Part shown: positions 53,333 to 63,920 of the stretch, one piece after another | Numbering within the stretch: the first letter of the stretch is position 1 | How the letters are laid out: every line of letters starts with the position of its first letter | NCBI RefSeq assembly: GCF_001005725.1 | Contig: NZ_LBIC01000006.1 | Location: 1 to 64,000 of the forward strand | DNA from: Sphingobium chungbukense | Lineage (GTDB): Bacteria > Pseudomonadota > Alphaproteobacteria > Sphingomonadales > Sphingomonadaceae | Direction of reading: 5' to 3' | Length of the DNA: 64,000 bases | Program-made: the position numbers and the translations under genes | Notes under the pieces: generated by a model | Database searches by the model: none | The model's input: the letters and a program-made list of their open reading frames with translations, nothing else | Told to the model about the DNA's origin: nothing

Positions 53333-55280
53333 TGCGCCTCTTCCATCCGTGGTCTGTTTGCCAGCAGATTATCGACCACGGCGGGATCGGCAAGCGTAGA
53401 CGTGTCGCCGAGGTTGGAGACGTCGTTTTCCGCGATCTTCCGCAGGATGCGTCGCATGATCTTGCCAGACCGCGTCTTGGGCAGACCGGGTGCGAACTGC
53501 ACCACGTCCGGCGAGGCGATCGGGCCGATTTCGCTGCGTACCCAGCGGATCAGTTCGCCACGCAGAGCATCGTCCGGCTCGACATCGGCATTGGTCGTGA
53601 CATAGGCATAGATGCCCTGCCCCTTGACGTCGTGCGGCATGCCGACGACGGCGGCTTCGGCCACCTTGGGATGCGCGACCAAGGCGCTCTCGATTTCCGC
53701 CGTGCCCATGCGATGGCCGGACACGTTGATGACGTCGTCGATGCGGCCGGTGATCCAATAATAGCCATCCTCGTCCCGCCGGCATCCGTCGCCGGTGAAA
53801 TAGCGTCCCGGAAAGGTCGTGAAATAGGTCTGGAAGAAGCGGTCATGGTCGCCCCAGACGGTGCGCATCTGTCCCGGCCAGCTATCCGCGAGCACAAGAC
53901 AGCCTTCCCCCGCCCCTCGATCAGCCGCCCGTCGCCATCGACCAGTTCGGGCTTCACGCCGAACATGGGCAGCGTCGCGGAGCCGGGCTTCAATGCCGTG
54001 GCCCCCGGCAGCGGGCTGATCATCGCGCCGCCCGTCTCAGTCTGCCACCAGGTATCGACGATGGGGCAGCGGCCCTCGCCCACGACATGATGATACCATT
54101 CCCATGCCTCAGGGTTTATCGGTTCGCCGACGCTGCCGAGCAGCCGCAACGTCTTGCGGCTGGTCTTGCGCACCCATTCGTCCCCCTCCCGCATCAACGC
54201 GCGCAGGGCCGTGGGGGCGCCGTAGAAAATCTCCACGCCGAACTTGTCGACCACCTGCCAGAAGCGGGAGGCATCGGGGAAATTGGGCACGCCCTCGAAC
54301 ATCACGCTGGTCGCGCCGTTCATCAGCGGCCCATAGACGACATAGCTGTGACCCGTGACCCATCCGATATCGGCGGCGCACCAGTAGATCTGGCCGGGCC
54401 GGTAATCGAACACATATTCATGCGTCATCGCCGCCCACACGGCATAGCCGCCGGTCGTATGCAGCACGCCCTTGGGTTTGCCGGTCGAACCCGATGTGTA
54501 CAGGATGAAAAGCGGGTCCTCGGCGCCCATTTCCTCCGGCTCGCACGTCGAAGGCTGGTCCTCGACCGCCGTGGCCCAGTCGATGTCGCGGCCTTCGACC
54601 ATCGCCACCTCGGCCCCTGTACGCCGCAGCATGATGACCGTCTCGACATCGGGGCAATGGGCGAGTGCGGCATCGACATTGGCCTTGAGGGGAACCTTCT
54701 TGCCACCGCGCAACCCCTCATCGGCGGTCACGACGATGCGGCTCGAACAATCCTCGATACGCCCGGCGAGCGCTTCGGGAGAGAAACCGGCGAAGACGAT
54801 CGAGTGGATGGCGCCGATGCGCGCGCAAGCCAGCATCGCCACCGCCGCTTCGGGCACCATGGGGAGGTAGAGGGTGACGCGATCCCCCCGCTTCACGCCC
54901 CGCGCCTTGAGCAGATTGGCGAAACGGCATACCGCTTCATGCAATTCGCGATAGCTGATGCGCCGTTCCGGTTCCGCCGGATCGTCGGGTTCCCAGAGGA
55001 TCGCGATGGCATCGCCACGCTCAGCCAGATGACGATCCAGGCAATTGGCGGACAGATTGAGCGTACCGTCCGCGAACCAGCTTATACCGAAATCCTCCTC
55101 CGAAAAGCTCGTCGCCTTGACCTGGCTGAACGGCTGCATCCAGTCGAGACGCTGCGCCTCCTCCGCCCAAAAACGCTCCGGATCGGTGATCGAATGCGCA
55201 TACATCTGCTGGTATCGCGCGGCGTCGACCAGCGCGTCGTTCGCCCACGGGTTGGGAACGGGATAAATGCCCTGGTCCAT
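53329..55280 (-). pseudogene. acs: Acetyl-CoA synthetase, with apparent frameshift
   Basis: The enzyme has about 650 residues. It starts at the ATG at 55280 after GGAGAGG. It makes acetyl-CoA from acetate, CoA and ATP. Blocks seen are [17 protein letters not shown], the P-loop-like [50 protein letters not shown] and, in the last part, [24 protein letters not shown] with the acetylatable Lys in [14 protein letters not shown]. Near 53905-53918 the frame breaks within GAGGGGCGGGGGAAGG. One missing G there restores [16 protein letters not shown] and the rest to the stop at 53329. The C-terminus is fully conserved, so this is either a recent lesion or an error. Confidence 0.88.
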
Positions 55281-55353
55281 AATATAGCACTCCTCTCCTT
55301 GATCGCCACCGATCCGTGGGCGGCATTCTAGACGCCGCGCGATCGCATCGGAC

Positions 55354-55382
55354 CCCCGACCAAAGTCGAATATCCCCGACCA
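55354..55382. promoter_or_regulatory. Direct repeats in the acs / porin divergent promoter
   Basis: CCCCGACCA occurs at 55354-55362 and 55374-55382, spaced exactly 20 bp, about two helical turns. The first copy continues to AAGTCG, the second to TGGTTCGG, so each is a weak dyad. They lie in the 179-bp gap between the divergent acs (55280) and porin (55460) starts and are candidate binding sites for the CrbR-like regulator. Confidence 0.4.
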
Positions 55383-55459
55383 TGGTTCGGCTGTCGCATC
55401 GCCGCGGCATGCGCGATCCTCTCCCCAGCCGGAAAACAAACCGGTCCATGGAGAGGACA

Positions 55460-56902
55460 ATGCCAAAGCCAAACGGACCATTTTTTCGCGTCCTGCTGGG
55501 AGCGACGGCACTCGCCGCACCCCAACTGGCCGGCGCGCAAGCCACGAAGGAGACGGAACTGGCGGCGCGTCTTGAGCGGCTGGAGAGCGAAGTCACCCAG
55601 CTTCGGACCGAACTCGCCGCCGCGCGCAACCAGCAGGACGAAACCGCGGCCACCGCCGCAAACGCCGTCCGCAAGAGCGACGAGACGTCCGCCCAAGTGA
55701 CCAGGCTGGCGGATAGCACGCCCAAGCTCGGCTTCCGCTCGGGCAATACCAATGTCGTCCTGTCCGGCTATGTGAAGCTGCTCGCCAGCAGCGCGCGATA
55801 CAGCGGCGGCGACGACCCGAGCAACACGCTCGGCCGCGACCTCTATCTGCCCCAGTCGGTCCCGGTCTTCAATCCCGCATTCCCGACGTCGCCTACCCGC
55901 GTCACCGACTTTTCCGCAAAGCAGACCCGCTTCTGGGTGGACGCCACCACAAAGCTCGGCAAGCATGCGCTCAAGGCCTATATCGAATTCGACTTCCAGG
56001 CCGCCCCCGGCACCCCGCAGGCGCTGGGCCAGGGGACGCAGCGCACGACCAACGCCTATGACCTCGCCATGCGGCGCGCCCTCATCCAGTTCGACCGCTG
56101 GACGTTCGGCCAGGATTTCACCAATTTCTCCAACCCGGCGGTTTTCCCCGAGAGCACGGATTATGTCGGCGGCGTCGACGGCCTGATCTTCGTGCGTCAG
56201 CCGATGGTGCGCTACAGCCTGCCGCTGAGCCACGGCCTGACCCTCCACCTGGCCGCCGAAAACCCGGAAACCGCTTCAGCGACGGTCGGAGCGCCCGCAC
56301 TCATCGAAAATGGCCAGGACCATGCACCTGACATGACCGGCCGCCTCGAATATGCTGGTGCATTCGGCTTCCTCGACCTCGCTGTGCTGGGCCGCCAGTT
56401 GCGCGTCGACAATGCGAAGGCGGGCGCCGCCCACATCGTCGATTCCCGCGTCGGATGGGGCATCAGCACCTCCGGCAAGATTTTCCTGGATGACAAGCAT
56501 GGCAGCGACATTCGCTTCCAGGCGACCTATGGTGAAGGGATCGGGCGCTATCTCGGCCTGAACTTCGGGCCCGATGCGGTCCTCCAGACCAACGGGCAGC
56601 TTGCGGGCGTCCGCAACCTCGCGCTGTTCGGCGCGGGCCGCTATGCGCTGAACGATCAGTGGCGCGTCAATCTGATCGCCAGCTATCAGCGCATCTTCTA
56701 CGCCGACACGCTCGACCCGGCGACGACTGCGGGTATCGCCATGTTCAATCGTCAGGCATGGAGTGTCGCGGGCAACCTCTTCTATTCCCCGGTGAAGAAT
56801 GTGGACCTCGGCATCGAGTACCGCCACGGCGAGCGCCGGCTCGTCAACGATCTCAACGGCCACGTCGATCGCTTCGACGTCGCGGCGAAATATAATTTCT
56901 GA
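55460..56902 (+). CDS. DcaP-like outer-membrane porin
   Basis: The 480-residue product starts at the ATG at 55460 after GGAGAGG. A signal peptide ends near AAPQLAGAQ. It is followed by a coiled coil of about 60 residues ([25 protein letters not shown]), which is typical of trimeric DcaP porins. The barrel carries [38 protein letters not shown] and [15 protein letters not shown] and ends in aromatic VAAKYNF. DcaP porins pass small carboxylates. Divergence from acs and the following MHS carrier suggest acetate or short organic acids as cargo. Confidence 0.88.
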
Positions 56903-60642: not shown

Positions 60643-61056
60643 TCACTCGAAAGTCGCGATGCACTCCACTTCCAATGGCGCGCCCAGCGCCAGACCATCC
60701 GCCCCGAAGGCGCTGCGCGCCGGCAGGCGCTTGCCCTCGAAATAGGGGACGTACACGGCATTGAAGCGCGGCCAGTCTGCCATGTCATCCAGCATGACCG
60801 TGCACTTGACCACCTTGCCGAAATCGAGGCCATTATCCGCCAATATCTTGCCGATGGAATCCATCGCGTTTCTCACCGCCGCGTCGAAGCCTTCCTTGTG
60901 CGGGTCCATCCCGGCCGGAACCTGGCCGATCTGGCCGGACATGTAGAGCGTGTTGCCGACGCGCACCGACGGCGAAAAGGGCAGTTTGGCGGGAAGTGTC
61001 TGGGCAATGGCCGGCCCGGCGACGAGGAGGGCCAAAAGCGTGGCGATTTTCATCAT
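60643..61056 (-). CDS. Exported RidA-family protein A
   Basis: The 137-residue product starts at ATGATG (61056), after GGAGACACGCC. A signal peptide (MMKIATLLALLVAGPAIAQ) is present, which is unusual since RidA proteins are normally cytoplasmic. The RidA fold is clear: SVRVGNTLYMSGQIGQVPAG, AVRNAMDSIGKILADNGLDFGKVVKCTVMLDDM and FNAVYVPYF. The catalytic Arg is kept in LPARSAFG and the Glu in LEVECIATF, so imine/enamine hydrolysis is plausible. It lies 49 bp after the cytochrome c gene of the amine oxidase module. Confidence 0.88.
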   Translation of the reverse strand: MMKIATLLALLVAGPAIAQTLPAKLPFSPSVRVGNTLYMSGQIGQVPAGMDPHKEGFDAAVRNAMDSIGKILADNGLDFGKVVKCTVMLDDMADWPRFNAVYVPYFEGKRLPARSAFGADGLALGAPLEVECIATFE

Positions 61057-61105
61057 GGCGTGTCTCCAATGGCGGGTCGTTCGAAAAGAAAGGCATCGTC
61101 TCGTA

Positions 61106-61513
61106 TCATTCCGCGCTGCCCCCCGCTTTGGCGACGCGCTTGACGTCCGCTTCCGTAACCGGCTGGGCATAGCTGTTACCGAAATGAGTCCGGACATAGG
61201 TGATGACTGCCGCCATCTGCGCTGAGGAAAGCATGTCGCCCATCGGTGGCATCGCACCCTTGCCTTTCGTCACCACCGCGATCGGATAGGCGGGGTCGGC
61301 CAGCTTCTTGTCCTTCGCCAGGGCGGGAATGGCGCCGCCCCCACTGCCCATGGCATCTGGCATATGACAGGCGGCACAAATCTGCTTGTAGACCTTCTCG
61401 CCATCGGCCGCCTTGTTCTTTGCCTGCACGCCACCCGGCGTATCGGCATGCCCCGGCGCGGCGAGGAGGGCCAATAGCGGCGGGATGAGGATCAAGGCGC
61501 GGCGCAGGCTCAT
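61106..61513 (-). CDS. Periplasmic cytochrome c, partner of the amine oxidase
   Basis: The 135-residue protein has a signal peptide (RRALILIPPLLALLAAPGHA) and one haem c site, CAACH, in VYKQICAACHMPDAMG at about residue 46-50. The axial Met is probably in KGKGAMPPMGDML. The start codon overlaps the stop of the amine oxidase gene by 4 bp, so the two are made together. This points to a cytochrome, not oxygen, as electron acceptor of the flavoenzyme, as known for the nicotine-oxidising enzyme NicA2 and its cytochrome CycN. Confidence 0.87.
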   Translation of the reverse strand: MSLRRALILIPPLLALLAAPGHADTPGGVQAKNKAADGEKVYKQICAACHMPDAMGSGGGAIPALAKDKKLADPAYPIAVVTKGKGAMPPMGDMLSSAQMAAVITYVRTHFGNSYAQPVTEADVKRVAKAGGSAE

Positions 61514-63096
61514 GCCGCCTGCGTCCGCTGGTGGATGCGCGTGATCGCGTCGAGGCCGGAGAGCAGCGATCCTTCCATCCAGCCGCCATAATAGCTGGCA
61601 TGTTCGCCCGCCAGAACCACGCGGCCGTCAATGGCGACCAGATTCTGGTAATGCGCTGCCCGGTTCTCCTCGCTCCAGCGCGAAGTGCATCCCAATATCC
61701 AGGGCACGCGGCTCCAGGGGACGGAAACGCCGTTCAGAAACTCCTTGCGATATTGCGGATGGAAGATTTCACCCTGGGCCAGCGCCGCCTCGATCCGCTC
61801 CTGCGGGGTCATGCCGGTCAGTTCGAACGCCCCGGCATCGCGCGCGAAGGCACCCAGCAATACCGCCGGCCCGCTGGAGAAGAAGCGGTCATTGGGATAG
61901 GATAGCTGTGCGATCGGCTGGTCGGTGAAGCTGTGACCGCCATAGATATTATCGTCCTCCTCCCAGAATCGGCGCTTGAACTCCAGCCCCATCTTGAGCT
62001 GTCCCGCATAGGGCACCGCCTTCATCGCCGCCGCCAGTTTCGGCCCCACCTGCATCTCGACCTGGCTGATGATCGAGAGCGGAATGGTGCACACGCACCA
62101 ATCGGCACTGACGCTGTTCATCTTGCCGCTGGGCACGTCCTTGTAGCTGACGGTCACGCCCTTTCCGTTCTGAGCGACCTTCGTGACTTTCGCATTATAG
62201 GTGATGAGCTTGCCGACCTGGGCAGCGAAGGCCTTGCCGATCATGTCCATGCCGCCCACAGGCTGGAACATCGTCGTCTGCATCACATAGTTGAAATAGA
62301 AGCTCATGGCCGTCCACACCTGCGGGTCGAGCACGTCGCCGAGCTTCGCAATCTGCGACGGCACGGGGGCGCCATCCACGCCACCGCCCGGCGGGCGATC
62401 ATATCCGCGCTGGGCGGAGACGGCGACGCTGCTGGTATAGGCCATATTGTCGTCGAGCACACCCCAATGCCGCAAAGCCTCCAGCAGCTTTTCCTTGTCC
62501 TCCGCGCTCACGCTGCCGTCCAGCACCTTGGCATTCGCCGCCTTCGCCAGCAGTTCGGAGGTATGTCCGCGGAAGTCGGTCGCCACCGCCTTGTAACGCT
62601 GCGGCTTGCCTCCGAAGGCCTCGCTCGAATGGATGAAGCCGTTATGATTGAGCTGAATGAACGGTTCGAGCGCGACGCCGAACTGCCTGCAATAATGCAG
62701 CAAGCAATTGTGATGGTGCGGAATGCGCCAGGGACCGGGGTTGATGTAATTGCCAGGTCCGAACTGTACCTTTTGAACGGCGCCGCTGCTTTCGGTGAAA
62801 GTGTCTCCGCCGCGCAATGTATAGTTGCGACCGCCCGGACGATCCTGAAACTCCAATATCTTGACCTGATACCCGGCCTTCTCCAGTTCATAGGCTGCGA
62901 CCATGCCGGCCAAGCCCGCGCCCAGCACGACGACCGAGGCGCCGGGTCTTGCACCGGACAGGACAGGCGGGCCGCTAAATTGCGTTTCGGCGGCATGGCC
63001 CAGCGTGGTCATCGCCTGATACATGGCCGCGGCGCCGCCCATCTTTCCGATCAGGGTCAATAGCTGGCGGCGGCTAGGCTGCGTGACATCCTTCAT
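61510..63096 (-). CDS. Exported flavin monoamine oxidase-family dehydrogenase
   Basis: The 528-residue product starts at the ATG at 63096 after a GGGGG-rich site. The N-terminus PSRRQLLTLIGKMGGAAAM is a Tat signal, fitting a folded flavoprotein. FAD binding is seen in SVVVLGAGLAGMVAAYELEKAGYQVKILE and DRPGGRNYT. The substrate half has PVGGMDMIGKAFA, and the C-terminus has VVLAGEHASYYGGWMEGSLLSG, the second FAD block. It oxidises an amine to an imine. Gene order (RidA, amine oxidase, cytochrome c, RidA) suggests a periplasmic pathway in which RidA hydrolyses the imine. The amine is unknown. Confidence 0.9.
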   Translation of the reverse strand: MKDVTQPSRRQLLTLIGKMGGAAAMYQAMTTLGHAAETQFSGPPVLSGARPGASVVVLGAGLAGMVAAYELEKAGYQVKILEFQDRPGGRNYTLRGGDTFTESSGAVQKVQFGPGNYINPGPWRIPHHHNCLLHYCRQFGVALEPFIQLNHNGFIHSSEAFGGKPQRYKAVATDFRGHTSELLAKAANAKVLDGSVSAEDKEKLLEALRHWGVLDDNMAYTSSVAVSAQRGYDRPPGGGVDGAPVPSQIAKLGDVLDPQVWTAMSFYFNYVMQTTMFQPVGGMDMIGKAFAAQVGKLITYNAKVTKVAQNGKGVTVSYKDVPSGKMNSVSADWCVCTIPLSIISQVEMQVGPKLAAAMKAVPYAGQLKMGLEFKRRFWEEDDNIYGGHSFTDQPIAQLSYPNDRFFSSGPAVLLGAFARDAGAFELTGMTPQERIEAALAQGEIFHPQYRKEFLNGVSVPWSRVPWILGCTSRWSEENRAAHYQNLVAIDGRVVLAGEHASYYGGWMEGSLLSGLDAITRIHQRTQAA

Positions 63097-63170
63097 GAAA
63101 ACCCCCTGTAGACGGGAAGGAAATCGGACTGCGGTCGTTTCACCCATGGACCGCCATCCCGTGAACAGGC

Positions 63171-63680
63171 TCAGGGAGCCTTGGCGGCAATCGCCTCGAT
63201 CTCGATCAGTTGCTGCGGCCGTGCGAGACCCGCGATCTGGAAGGCCGATCGCGTGGGAAGATTGGGTTGTTCGGCTGTGCCGAAGAACTTCTTATAGGCC
63301 CGCGTCATGCCGTCCCGGTCCATCTTCCCGCCGAGCACCGGATCGCCCACTAGGAAGACGGTCAGCTTAACGACATCGCCCATGCCCAGCCCCATCTCCG
63401 CAAGCTGCGCTTTCATCTTGGTGAAGATGGACATCGCCTGCGCTTCAGTGTCGCCGAAAGCGCCGGGGCTTTCCACGTCCTTCGGATCGATCGGCGCACC
63501 GGTTGCACCCGACAGAAAATAGATGCTGCTGCCGGGCGGGACGACGGCAGCGCTGGCAATCATGGCACCAGGAGCCTGCTTGTGTTCGACCGTCGCCGCA
63601 TGGGCAGCAAGAGGGAAAGACGTCAAAGCCGCCATCGCAATCCCGAAATGAGAAAATCTCAAAACCGACAAAGTCGTCAT
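63171..63680 (-). CDS. Exported RidA-family protein B
   Basis: The 169-residue protein has a signal peptide (FSHFGIAMAALTSFPLAAHA). RidA marks are SSIYFLSGATGAPID, GDTEAQAMSIFTKMKAQLAEMGLGMGDVVKLTVFLVGD, the catalytic Arg in LPTRSAFQIAGL and Glu in LIEIEAIAAK. It is longer than RidA A by about 30 residues and clearly a different subgroup. It lies 74 bp upstream of the amine oxidase gene on the same strand and is probably the first gene of the operon. Two exported RidA paralogues flank the oxidase and cytochrome pair. Confidence 0.88.
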   Translation of the reverse strand: MTTLSVLRFSHFGIAMAALTSFPLAAHAATVEHKQAPGAMIASAAVVPPGSSIYFLSGATGAPIDPKDVESPGAFGDTEAQAMSIFTKMKAQLAEMGLGMGDVVKLTVFLVGDPVLGGKMDRDGMTRAYKKFFGTAEQPNLPTRSAFQIAGLARPQQLIEIEAIAAKAP

Positions 63681-63920
63681 GACGTCCCCCTATTTCCCAA
63701 AGTGCCAATATTTGTACAAGGGAACGAGGAAGAGAGGGAAATCCGCCATTGCCGGGCAGGACAGGGGAGTTGGATGGAACCGATATTCCATCGGCCCAGG
63801 CCGAGGGCGAAACCCCAGCCTTCCATTGCCCCAATTCCATCGCCTGGAAGGAACTTTCCCGATCCTAAAGCGTAACGCCCCCGTCGCATGCGGAAAAATC
63901 CGTGCGAAGGGGGGCTATCA

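Follow-up and report, generated by a model that had tools for sequence, protein, structure and literature searches.

The 64,000-nucleotide stretch analyzed here (the window) comprises positions 1 to 64,000 of contig NZ_LBIC01000006.1 in the Sphingobium chungbukense assembly GCF_001005725.1. Close to its end four minus-strand genes encode, in this order, a Rid3-type protein (Rid-1), a flavoprotein resembling L-amino acid oxidases (LAAO), a cytochrome c and a RidA-like protein (Rid-2). We consider it probable that the cluster specifies an L-amino-acid dehydrogenase that works in the periplasm, along with an electron carrier and imine hydrolases of its own. Judged from related loci, Rid-2 is not dedicated to the oxidase; its usual home appears to be an operon of a TonB receptor and periplasmic pyridoxal phosphate (PLP) enzymes. 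The window, by the same comparison, carries a split and pruned version of a seven-gene operon present in relatives. The features are as follows (Tat, twin-arginine translocation):

63171..63680, minus strand: Rid-1, exported Rid3-type protein of 169 residues, predicted imine deaminase (PF01042; solved relatives PFL1385 and PSPTO3006; Arg144, Glu162, Ile at the Tyr17 position)
63597..63680, minus strand: Sec-type signal peptide of Rid-1, 28 residues, ending in AHA (crude rule, score 2.9)
61510..63096, minus strand: LAAO-like flavoprotein of 528 residues, Tat-type export (PF01593; 2jae; Arg124, Arg230, Trp506)
62992..63096, minus strand: Tat signal region of the flavoprotein, with SRRQLL at residues 8-13 (sequence, by eye)
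61106..61513, minus strand: mono-haem cytochrome c of 135 residues with a signal-like N-terminus (PF13442)
61510..61513, minus strand: 4-bp overlap of flavoprotein stop and cytochrome c start (sequence)
61364..61378, minus strand: CAACH haem-binding motif of the cytochrome c, residues 46-50 (sequence)
60643..61056, minus strand: Rid-2, exported RidA-like protein of 137 residues (PF01042; TIGR00004 below cut-off; Arg114, Glu131, Phe at the Tyr17 position)
61003..61056, minus strand: Sec-type signal peptide of Rid-2, 18 residues, ending in AIA (crude rule, score 4.0)
61097..63749, minus strand: block of Rid-1, LAAO and cytochrome c common to the window and relative G008, 84% DNA identity (blastn)

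Four proteins with predicted export signals in one cluster

All four proteins score well above their Pfam cut-offs: Ribonuc_L-PSP reaches 49.7 bits for Rid-1 and 88.1 for Rid-2 (cut-off 27.3), Amino_oxidase 191.5 for the flavoprotein (19.8) and Cytochrome_CBB3 58.6 for the cytochrome c (27), which contains a single CxxCH. A gap of 74 bp separates Rid-1 from the start of the flavoprotein, and Rid-2 begins 49 bp after the cytochrome c stop on the same strand; the four genes are presumably co-transcribed. The open reading frame (ORF) listed for the flavoprotein opens at 63147, but the most likely start is the ATG at 63096, which begins the Tat-like signal. Sec signal peptides were scored by a crude home-made rule and Tat signals by motif and eye; in a small control, one of five other Rid-family ORFs of the window genome passed the rule (score 2.2). 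The original prediction, made from the DNA letters, had described four such genes with two signal-bearing Rid proteins, a 4-bp overlap of oxidase and cytochrome c genes, and the catalytic Arg and Glu kept in both Rids. All of this is borne out.

The best solved relative of the flavoprotein is the L-amino acid oxidase 2jae (E 2e-86, residues 50-525), which we take to be the Rhodococcus opacus enzyme, followed by ancestral and snake-type L-amino acid oxidases. Near-full-length solved matches are all named LAAO except 5ts5, which is called 'Amine oxidase'; L-glutamate oxidase and amine oxidases give far weaker, partial matches. On the solved structures we set aside a NicA2 or monoamine-oxidase type as less likely: the best matches that span most of the protein are LAAOs, and monoamine oxidase B aligns with just 44 residues. 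The earlier label of flavin amine oxidase correctly points to a Tat-type flavoprotein, but 'amine oxidase' is too loose for a protein nearest to LAAO.

Some of the presumed substrate-side residues agree with this assignment. We aligned the window protein with 84 relatives and found Arg124, Arg230 and Trp506 invariant in all 85 rows. Arg124 and Trp506 presumably align with the substrate-side Arg and Trp of 2jae (assuming an offset of one). Because of this match the substrate is likely to bear a carboxylate, and because the enzyme is LAAO-like the product is likely an imino acid and then an alpha-keto acid. A twin-arginine motif is present in 75 of the 84 oxidase ORFs tested.

For Rid-1 the best solved relatives are PFL1385 (5e-34) and PSPTO3006 (2e-28), both classed as Rid3 (PMC5619798). 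In the assays reported there, these two proteins hydrolyse the imines that L-amino acid oxidase makes from Leu, Gln, Phe, Met and His and, unlike RidA, also iminoarginine. The mark of Rid3 is an Ile replacing the RidA Tyr, and RidA and Rid3 genes are described as clustering with FAD amine oxidases (PMC4433059). Rid-1 shows the Ile along with the kept Arg and Glu and, by analogy with its assayed relatives, is predicted to be an imine deaminase. The same marks recur in 66 Rid3-type ORFs next to oxidases, of which 59 have Ile and four Val at the Tyr position (three unaligned), while Arg is kept in 65 and Glu in 65 (one is cut by a contig end). By the crude rule 65 of the 66, from alpha-, beta- and gammaproteobacterial hosts, carry a signal peptide; the only one that fails, in locus L011, has the N-terminus MKAALGWTLALWALGMTTAAQAQ, which looks signal-like by eye. 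This would make Rid chemistry outside the cytoplasm the rule for one subfamily, the Rid3-type proteins beside LAAO-like flavoproteins. The words 'signal' and 'periplasm' do not occur in the study that assayed two Rid3 proteins (PMC5619798).

Combining these elements, the flavoprotein would be exported by Tat in folded form with its FAD, and would oxidize an L-amino acid, or a molecule bearing an amino acid, at the alpha-amino group, giving an imino acid. Its electrons would pass to the cytochrome c encoded alongside and from there to the respiratory chain, a path suggested by the gene order and by the kinetics of other Tat-plus-cytochrome flavoproteins (PMC12224317). Rid-1 would then hydrolyse the freed imino acid to an alpha-keto acid and ammonium in the periplasm, as the assays of Rid3 relatives lead us to expect (PMC5619798). 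Of the originally proposed four-gene route from amine through imine to carbonyl, the four export signals, the pairing of oxidase and cytochrome c and the conservation of Rid-1 beside the oxidase all stand; the dedication of Rid-2 to the oxidase is not supported.

Conservation across related loci

To place the cluster among its relatives we used the best 80 of 95 oxidase relatives from one pattern-based scan, which gave 77 distinct loci; this is a non-random sample and several loci are cut by contig ends. Hosts include Sphingobium, Novosphingobium, Pseudomonas, Rhodobacteraceae, Massilia, Duganella and Pseudoxanthomonas. A same-strand cytochrome c gene lies within 400 bp of the oxidase in 69 loci, and a same-strand Rid3 gene within 3.5 kb in 52, all 52 of which have both. 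Since the window genome has seven Rid-family matches in 5.5 Mb, such a grouping goes beyond chance. A search for the same four-gene order in other genomes had been proposed: the core of Rid3, oxidase and cytochrome c (the trio) is present in these 52 loci, and a Rid-2-type gene lies by the oxidase in 11 of the 77.

Relatives also occur on plasmids (37 records with one, three of them inspected). Those of Microvirga ossetica and Sulfitobacter indolifex show the order oxidase, cytochrome c, RidA, and that of Rhizobium tropici, whose gene table is known to be incomplete, shows oxidase and cytochrome c. Selection appears to be purifying on all four genes of the cluster, because the pairwise ratios of non-synonymous to synonymous substitution (dN/dS) are well under 1 in the compared pairs: 0.04-0.13 for LAAO, 0.08-0.21 for Rid-1, 0.12-0.26 for cytochrome c and 0.10-0.18 for Rid-2.

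Some loci deviate from the simple trio. Two oxidase genes stand next to each other or around one cytochrome c gene in L020, L022, L023, L025, L026, L027, L034, L036 and L071. Several loci, for example L019-L024, have a second, divergent Rid3 gene with a signal peptide past the receptor. In the Rid3-free loci L060-L064 and L066, the region directly upstream of the oxidase holds stop-to-stop ORFs (1.5-2.1 kb) that were flagged as cytochrome c and possibly encode larger haem proteins.

The second Rid protein and the receptor operon

The nearest relatives of Rid-2 are RidA proteins and it keeps the RidA residues Arg114 and Glu131, with Phe at the Tyr17 position. We call it RidA-like because its TIGR00004 score of 89.4 bits is under the curated cut-off of 106.25. 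The original prediction saw the two Rids as a pair dedicated to one oxidase, and this is not supported by the distribution of Rid-2 over 61 genomes of the genus. At the search thresholds applied, the counts are 46 genomes for the receptor, 37 for Rid-2, 17 for the oxidase, 17 for PLP-2 and 15 for PLP-1, the two PLP genes being described below. For the receptor, 46 of 47 genomes were kept, leaving out G021 (40% identity) and secondary paralogue matches; seven of the 46 matches, at 49-58% identity, are perhaps not strict orthologues. One of several oxidase copies was kept in G028, G065 and G083. All 37 genomes with Rid-2 also have the receptor, in 34 cases within 9 kb (the exceptions are G007, G069 and the window genome, G000), and Rid-2 lies within 9 kb in every PLP-1 genome (15/15) and every PLP-2 genome (17/17). 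With the oxidase there is no detectable association: 12 of the 17 genomes that have the oxidase carry Rid-2, against 25 of the remaining 44 (Fisher p 0.39), compared with p 2e-8 for Rid-2 and receptor, where both tests ignore relatedness.

Fifteen further Rid-2 loci (L163-L177), hand-picked from 34 genomes, were fetched as well; in 12 cases the genome lacks the oxidase. Their order is receptor, PLP-1, PLP-2, Rid-2 in six, receptor, PLP-2, Rid-2 in two and receptor, Rid-2 in six; one has neither receptor nor PLP genes. The PLP genes are thus partly or wholly gone in nine, and receptor and Rid stay together in 14. The complete oxidase-free form, for example L163:2-5252, joins a TonB receptor and two Tat-type PLP enzymes to an exported RidA-like protein. 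Rid-2 as a dedicated oxidase partner was accordingly dropped as a candidate: both neighbourhood and co-occurrence follow the TonB receptor and the PLP enzymes.

How the two systems meet can be seen in the 14 nearest loci (oxidase identity of at least 81%). Nine have the full operon of TonB receptor, Rid3, LAAO, cytochrome c, PLP-1, PLP-2 and RidA-like protein. A TonB-dependent receptor of about 880 residues, with Pfam plug and barrel domains, lies upstream of Rid-1 in 11 of the 14, and after the cytochrome c gene follow PLP-1 in ten, PLP-2 in ten and Rid-2 in 11; L008-L010 have the trio only. PLP-1 is an aminotransferase whose closest models are PRK09105 (425.7 bits, cut-off 444) and PtaA (332.9 bits, cut-off 500), with a score under the cut-off in both cases. 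PLP-2 belongs to class V, and both show twin-arginine-like N-terminal signals by eye. Over all 77 loci, a receptor relative lies on the same strand within 4.5 kb of the oxidase in 30, including Massilia, Duganella and Pseudoxanthomonas, and relatives of PLP-1 and PLP-2 lie by the oxidase in 11 and ten, respectively. In Pseudoxanthomonas a class I/II aminotransferase related to PLP-1 follows Rid3.

In the window genome the receptor is located on contig C1, and the trio and Rid-2 on C6. Orthologues of PLP-1 and PLP-2 were not found in this genome, which does hold PLP-1 paralogues at 31-39% identity; two of these, at 38-39%, stand in tandem away from the cluster (G000:C21:71203-73563). Given the receptor's place on a separate contig and the unsuccessful search for PLP orthologues, we think it most likely that Rid-2 acts today as an additional imine hydrolase.

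The history of the locus can partly be traced. By blastn, the trio block is 84% identical in DNA to G008, 85% to G012 and 83% to G027 over 2.5 kb, and its flanks (up to about 6 kb per side, less at contig ends) have no match to these three genomes. Since the block matches at 83-85% and the flanks do not, we conclude that the trio has moved as a block. In these three genomes, receptor and oxidase share 94-96% identity with their counterparts in the window genome. At the receptor locus of the window genome, the match to relatives stops about where their Rid-2 begins. The window Rid-2 is 87% identical in protein to that of G006, which has the arrangement without PLP-2, and 75-78% in one comparison, 77-82% in another, to those of G008, G012 and G027. 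A DNA tree of 25 rows puts it outside the clade of these last three (100/100) without fixing its own place, and 11 of the 22 inner branches are open. We therefore dropped the idea that Rid-2 is the inherited genus copy of the window lineage, although the tree is weakly resolved. The simplest reading would be that Rid-2 arrived with a trio-bearing operon, after which the PLP genes were lost.

Alternative explanations

Several observations weigh against a periplasmic L-amino-acid dehydrogenase with a fixed set of partners. Two pocket residues that we assume for 2jae are replaced in the window protein, a Tyr by Phe417 and a second Trp by Thr471, so its substrate scope may differ from that of 2jae; at position 417 the 85 rows have Tyr (45), Phe (38) or Asn (2), and position 471 is variable. 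Rid3 is missing within 3.5 kb of the oxidase in 25 of the 77 loci and an adjacent cytochrome c in eight (some of them cut by contig ends), from which it follows that neither is strictly required. Furthermore, 'L-amino acid' and 'rid' occur zero times in the main text of the study on which the electron path leans, and its NicA2-derived set may exclude the LAAO-like group (PMC12224317).

An oxygen-using periplasmic LAAO that gives H2O2 for defence or competition, with the cytochrome as an incidental neighbour, would fit the oxidase names of the nearest solved relatives and the H2O2 formed by LAO1 of Chlamydomonas (PMC10805672). We nonetheless regard it as improbable: a cytochrome c gene lies by the oxidase in nine tenths of the loci (69/77) and overlaps its end in the window, and in the flavoproteins assayed the presence of a cytochrome c gene in the operon was a predictor of slow oxygen reactivity (PMC12224317). 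Very unlikely, in our opinion, is the four-gene unit as first proposed, in which the two Rids would both have arisen to serve a single amine oxidase. The position of Rid-2 directly after the cytochrome c gene, intact and under purifying selection, speaks for it, as does its location within 9 kb of the oxidase in eight of the 12 genus genomes having both. However, at the threshold used the oxidase is absent from 25 of the 37 genomes that carry a Rid-2 orthologue, Rid-2 tracks the receptor and not the oxidase in the tests above, and in the genomes with the most similar oxidases (G008, G012, G027 and G072) it lies by the receptor, away from the oxidase.

Also unlikely is an alternative in which the cell takes up a siderophore- or peptide-like compound that bears an amino acid, and the enzymes tailor this compound instead of breaking down free amino acids. 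The receptor and PLP relatives near the oxidase would suit such a role, and pyoverdine is tailored in the periplasm by PtaA and PvdN (PMC6206403). The window genome itself argues against it, with its receptor on another contig and its PLP orthologues not found; no search was made for a biosynthetic cluster. Compared with these alternatives, we retain the periplasmic dehydrogenase with its cytochrome c and imine hydrolases. Going beyond it, one could imagine the trio as a cassette inserted into a wider periplasmic pathway for amino groups that is coupled to a receptor. Here the TonB receptor would import an amino-acid-bearing compound, LAAO and Rid3 would generate alpha-keto acids, these would accept amino groups and so regenerate PLP on a Tat-exported transaminase, and the second exported Rid would clear imines or enamines of the PLP enzymes, the window being a pruned descendant of the seven-gene operon. 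This scheme is speculative and rather improbable. If true, the keto acids would address the regeneration of PLP in the periplasm, a step left open for PtaA (PMC6206403).

Relation to known systems

The original prediction held that an exported Rid pair with an oxidase seems not to be described, and this does not hold up against the literature: a lao-cccA-ridA cluster (PMC5053998), a Chlamydomonas LAAO/RIDA pair (PMC10805672) and clusters of RidA or Rid3 with FAD amine oxidases (PMC4433059) have been published. The first, from 2016, concerns GDI2456-2454 of Gluconacetobacter diazotrophicus PAL5. In a lao Tn5 mutant the lao, cccA and ridA transcripts all drop and no indole-3-acetic acid is made; the lao product has a Tat signal and was modelled on the R. 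opacus LAAO, joint action of the three genes was suggested, and the same gene order is reported for Caulobacter and Xanthomonas (PMC5053998). Compared by description, the window likewise has a Tat-signal LAAO-like flavoprotein, an adjoining same-strand cytochrome c and a Rid; it differs in having a Rid3-type protein upstream and a RidA-like one downstream, where a single Rid is described for G. diazotrophicus.

A second line concerns flavin amine oxidases that act as cytochrome c-using dehydrogenases, among them NicA2 and Pnao (PMC12224317, PMC9396064). Dehydrogenase function is reported to be well predicted by a Tat signal together with a cytochrome c gene in the operon (PMC12224317). The window flavoprotein shares both properties, but it is LAAO-like by its best solved relative and has Rid neighbours. 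In Chlamydomonas, periplasmic LAO1 is found with LAO2/RIDA, again a periplasmic LAAO paired with a RidA protein; this system is eukaryotic and H2O2-forming, and a cytochrome c partner is not mentioned in the accessible text (PMC10805672). PtaA and PvdN, finally, are Tat-exported PLP enzymes (PMC6206403). PLP-1 of the relatives resembles PtaA in its score on that model, albeit below the cut-off, and what likens PLP-2 to PvdN is just the class V fold and the Tat signal; both PLP genes are found in relatives, outside this window.

The core trio is therefore already known, and the receptor and PLP context is the part for which we found no description. A search of titles and abstract beginnings in the open-access literature returned neither the seven-gene receptor-linked arrangement nor Rid3 as an exported subfamily, which is a weak negative. 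The seven-gene operon brings together flavoprotein dehydrogenases that use cytochrome c and PLP enzymes exported by Tat, two topics that we did not find connected in that literature.

Neighbouring genes

Divergent from Rid-1, from 63876 onward in the window (L115:3877-6389), lies another TonB receptor, which scores 654.7 bits on TOL_0244 (cut-off 645). As a candidate substrate receptor it was rejected, belonging to this other family and not being found in the 14 nearest loci. The small ORF that follows it has, by eye, what we take to be a YfiR-like look. Farther away, at 53550-55520 on the minus strand of the window, an ORF resembles acetyl-CoA synthetase by eye; its last part reads as though out of frame, possibly through a frameshift or a sequencing error.

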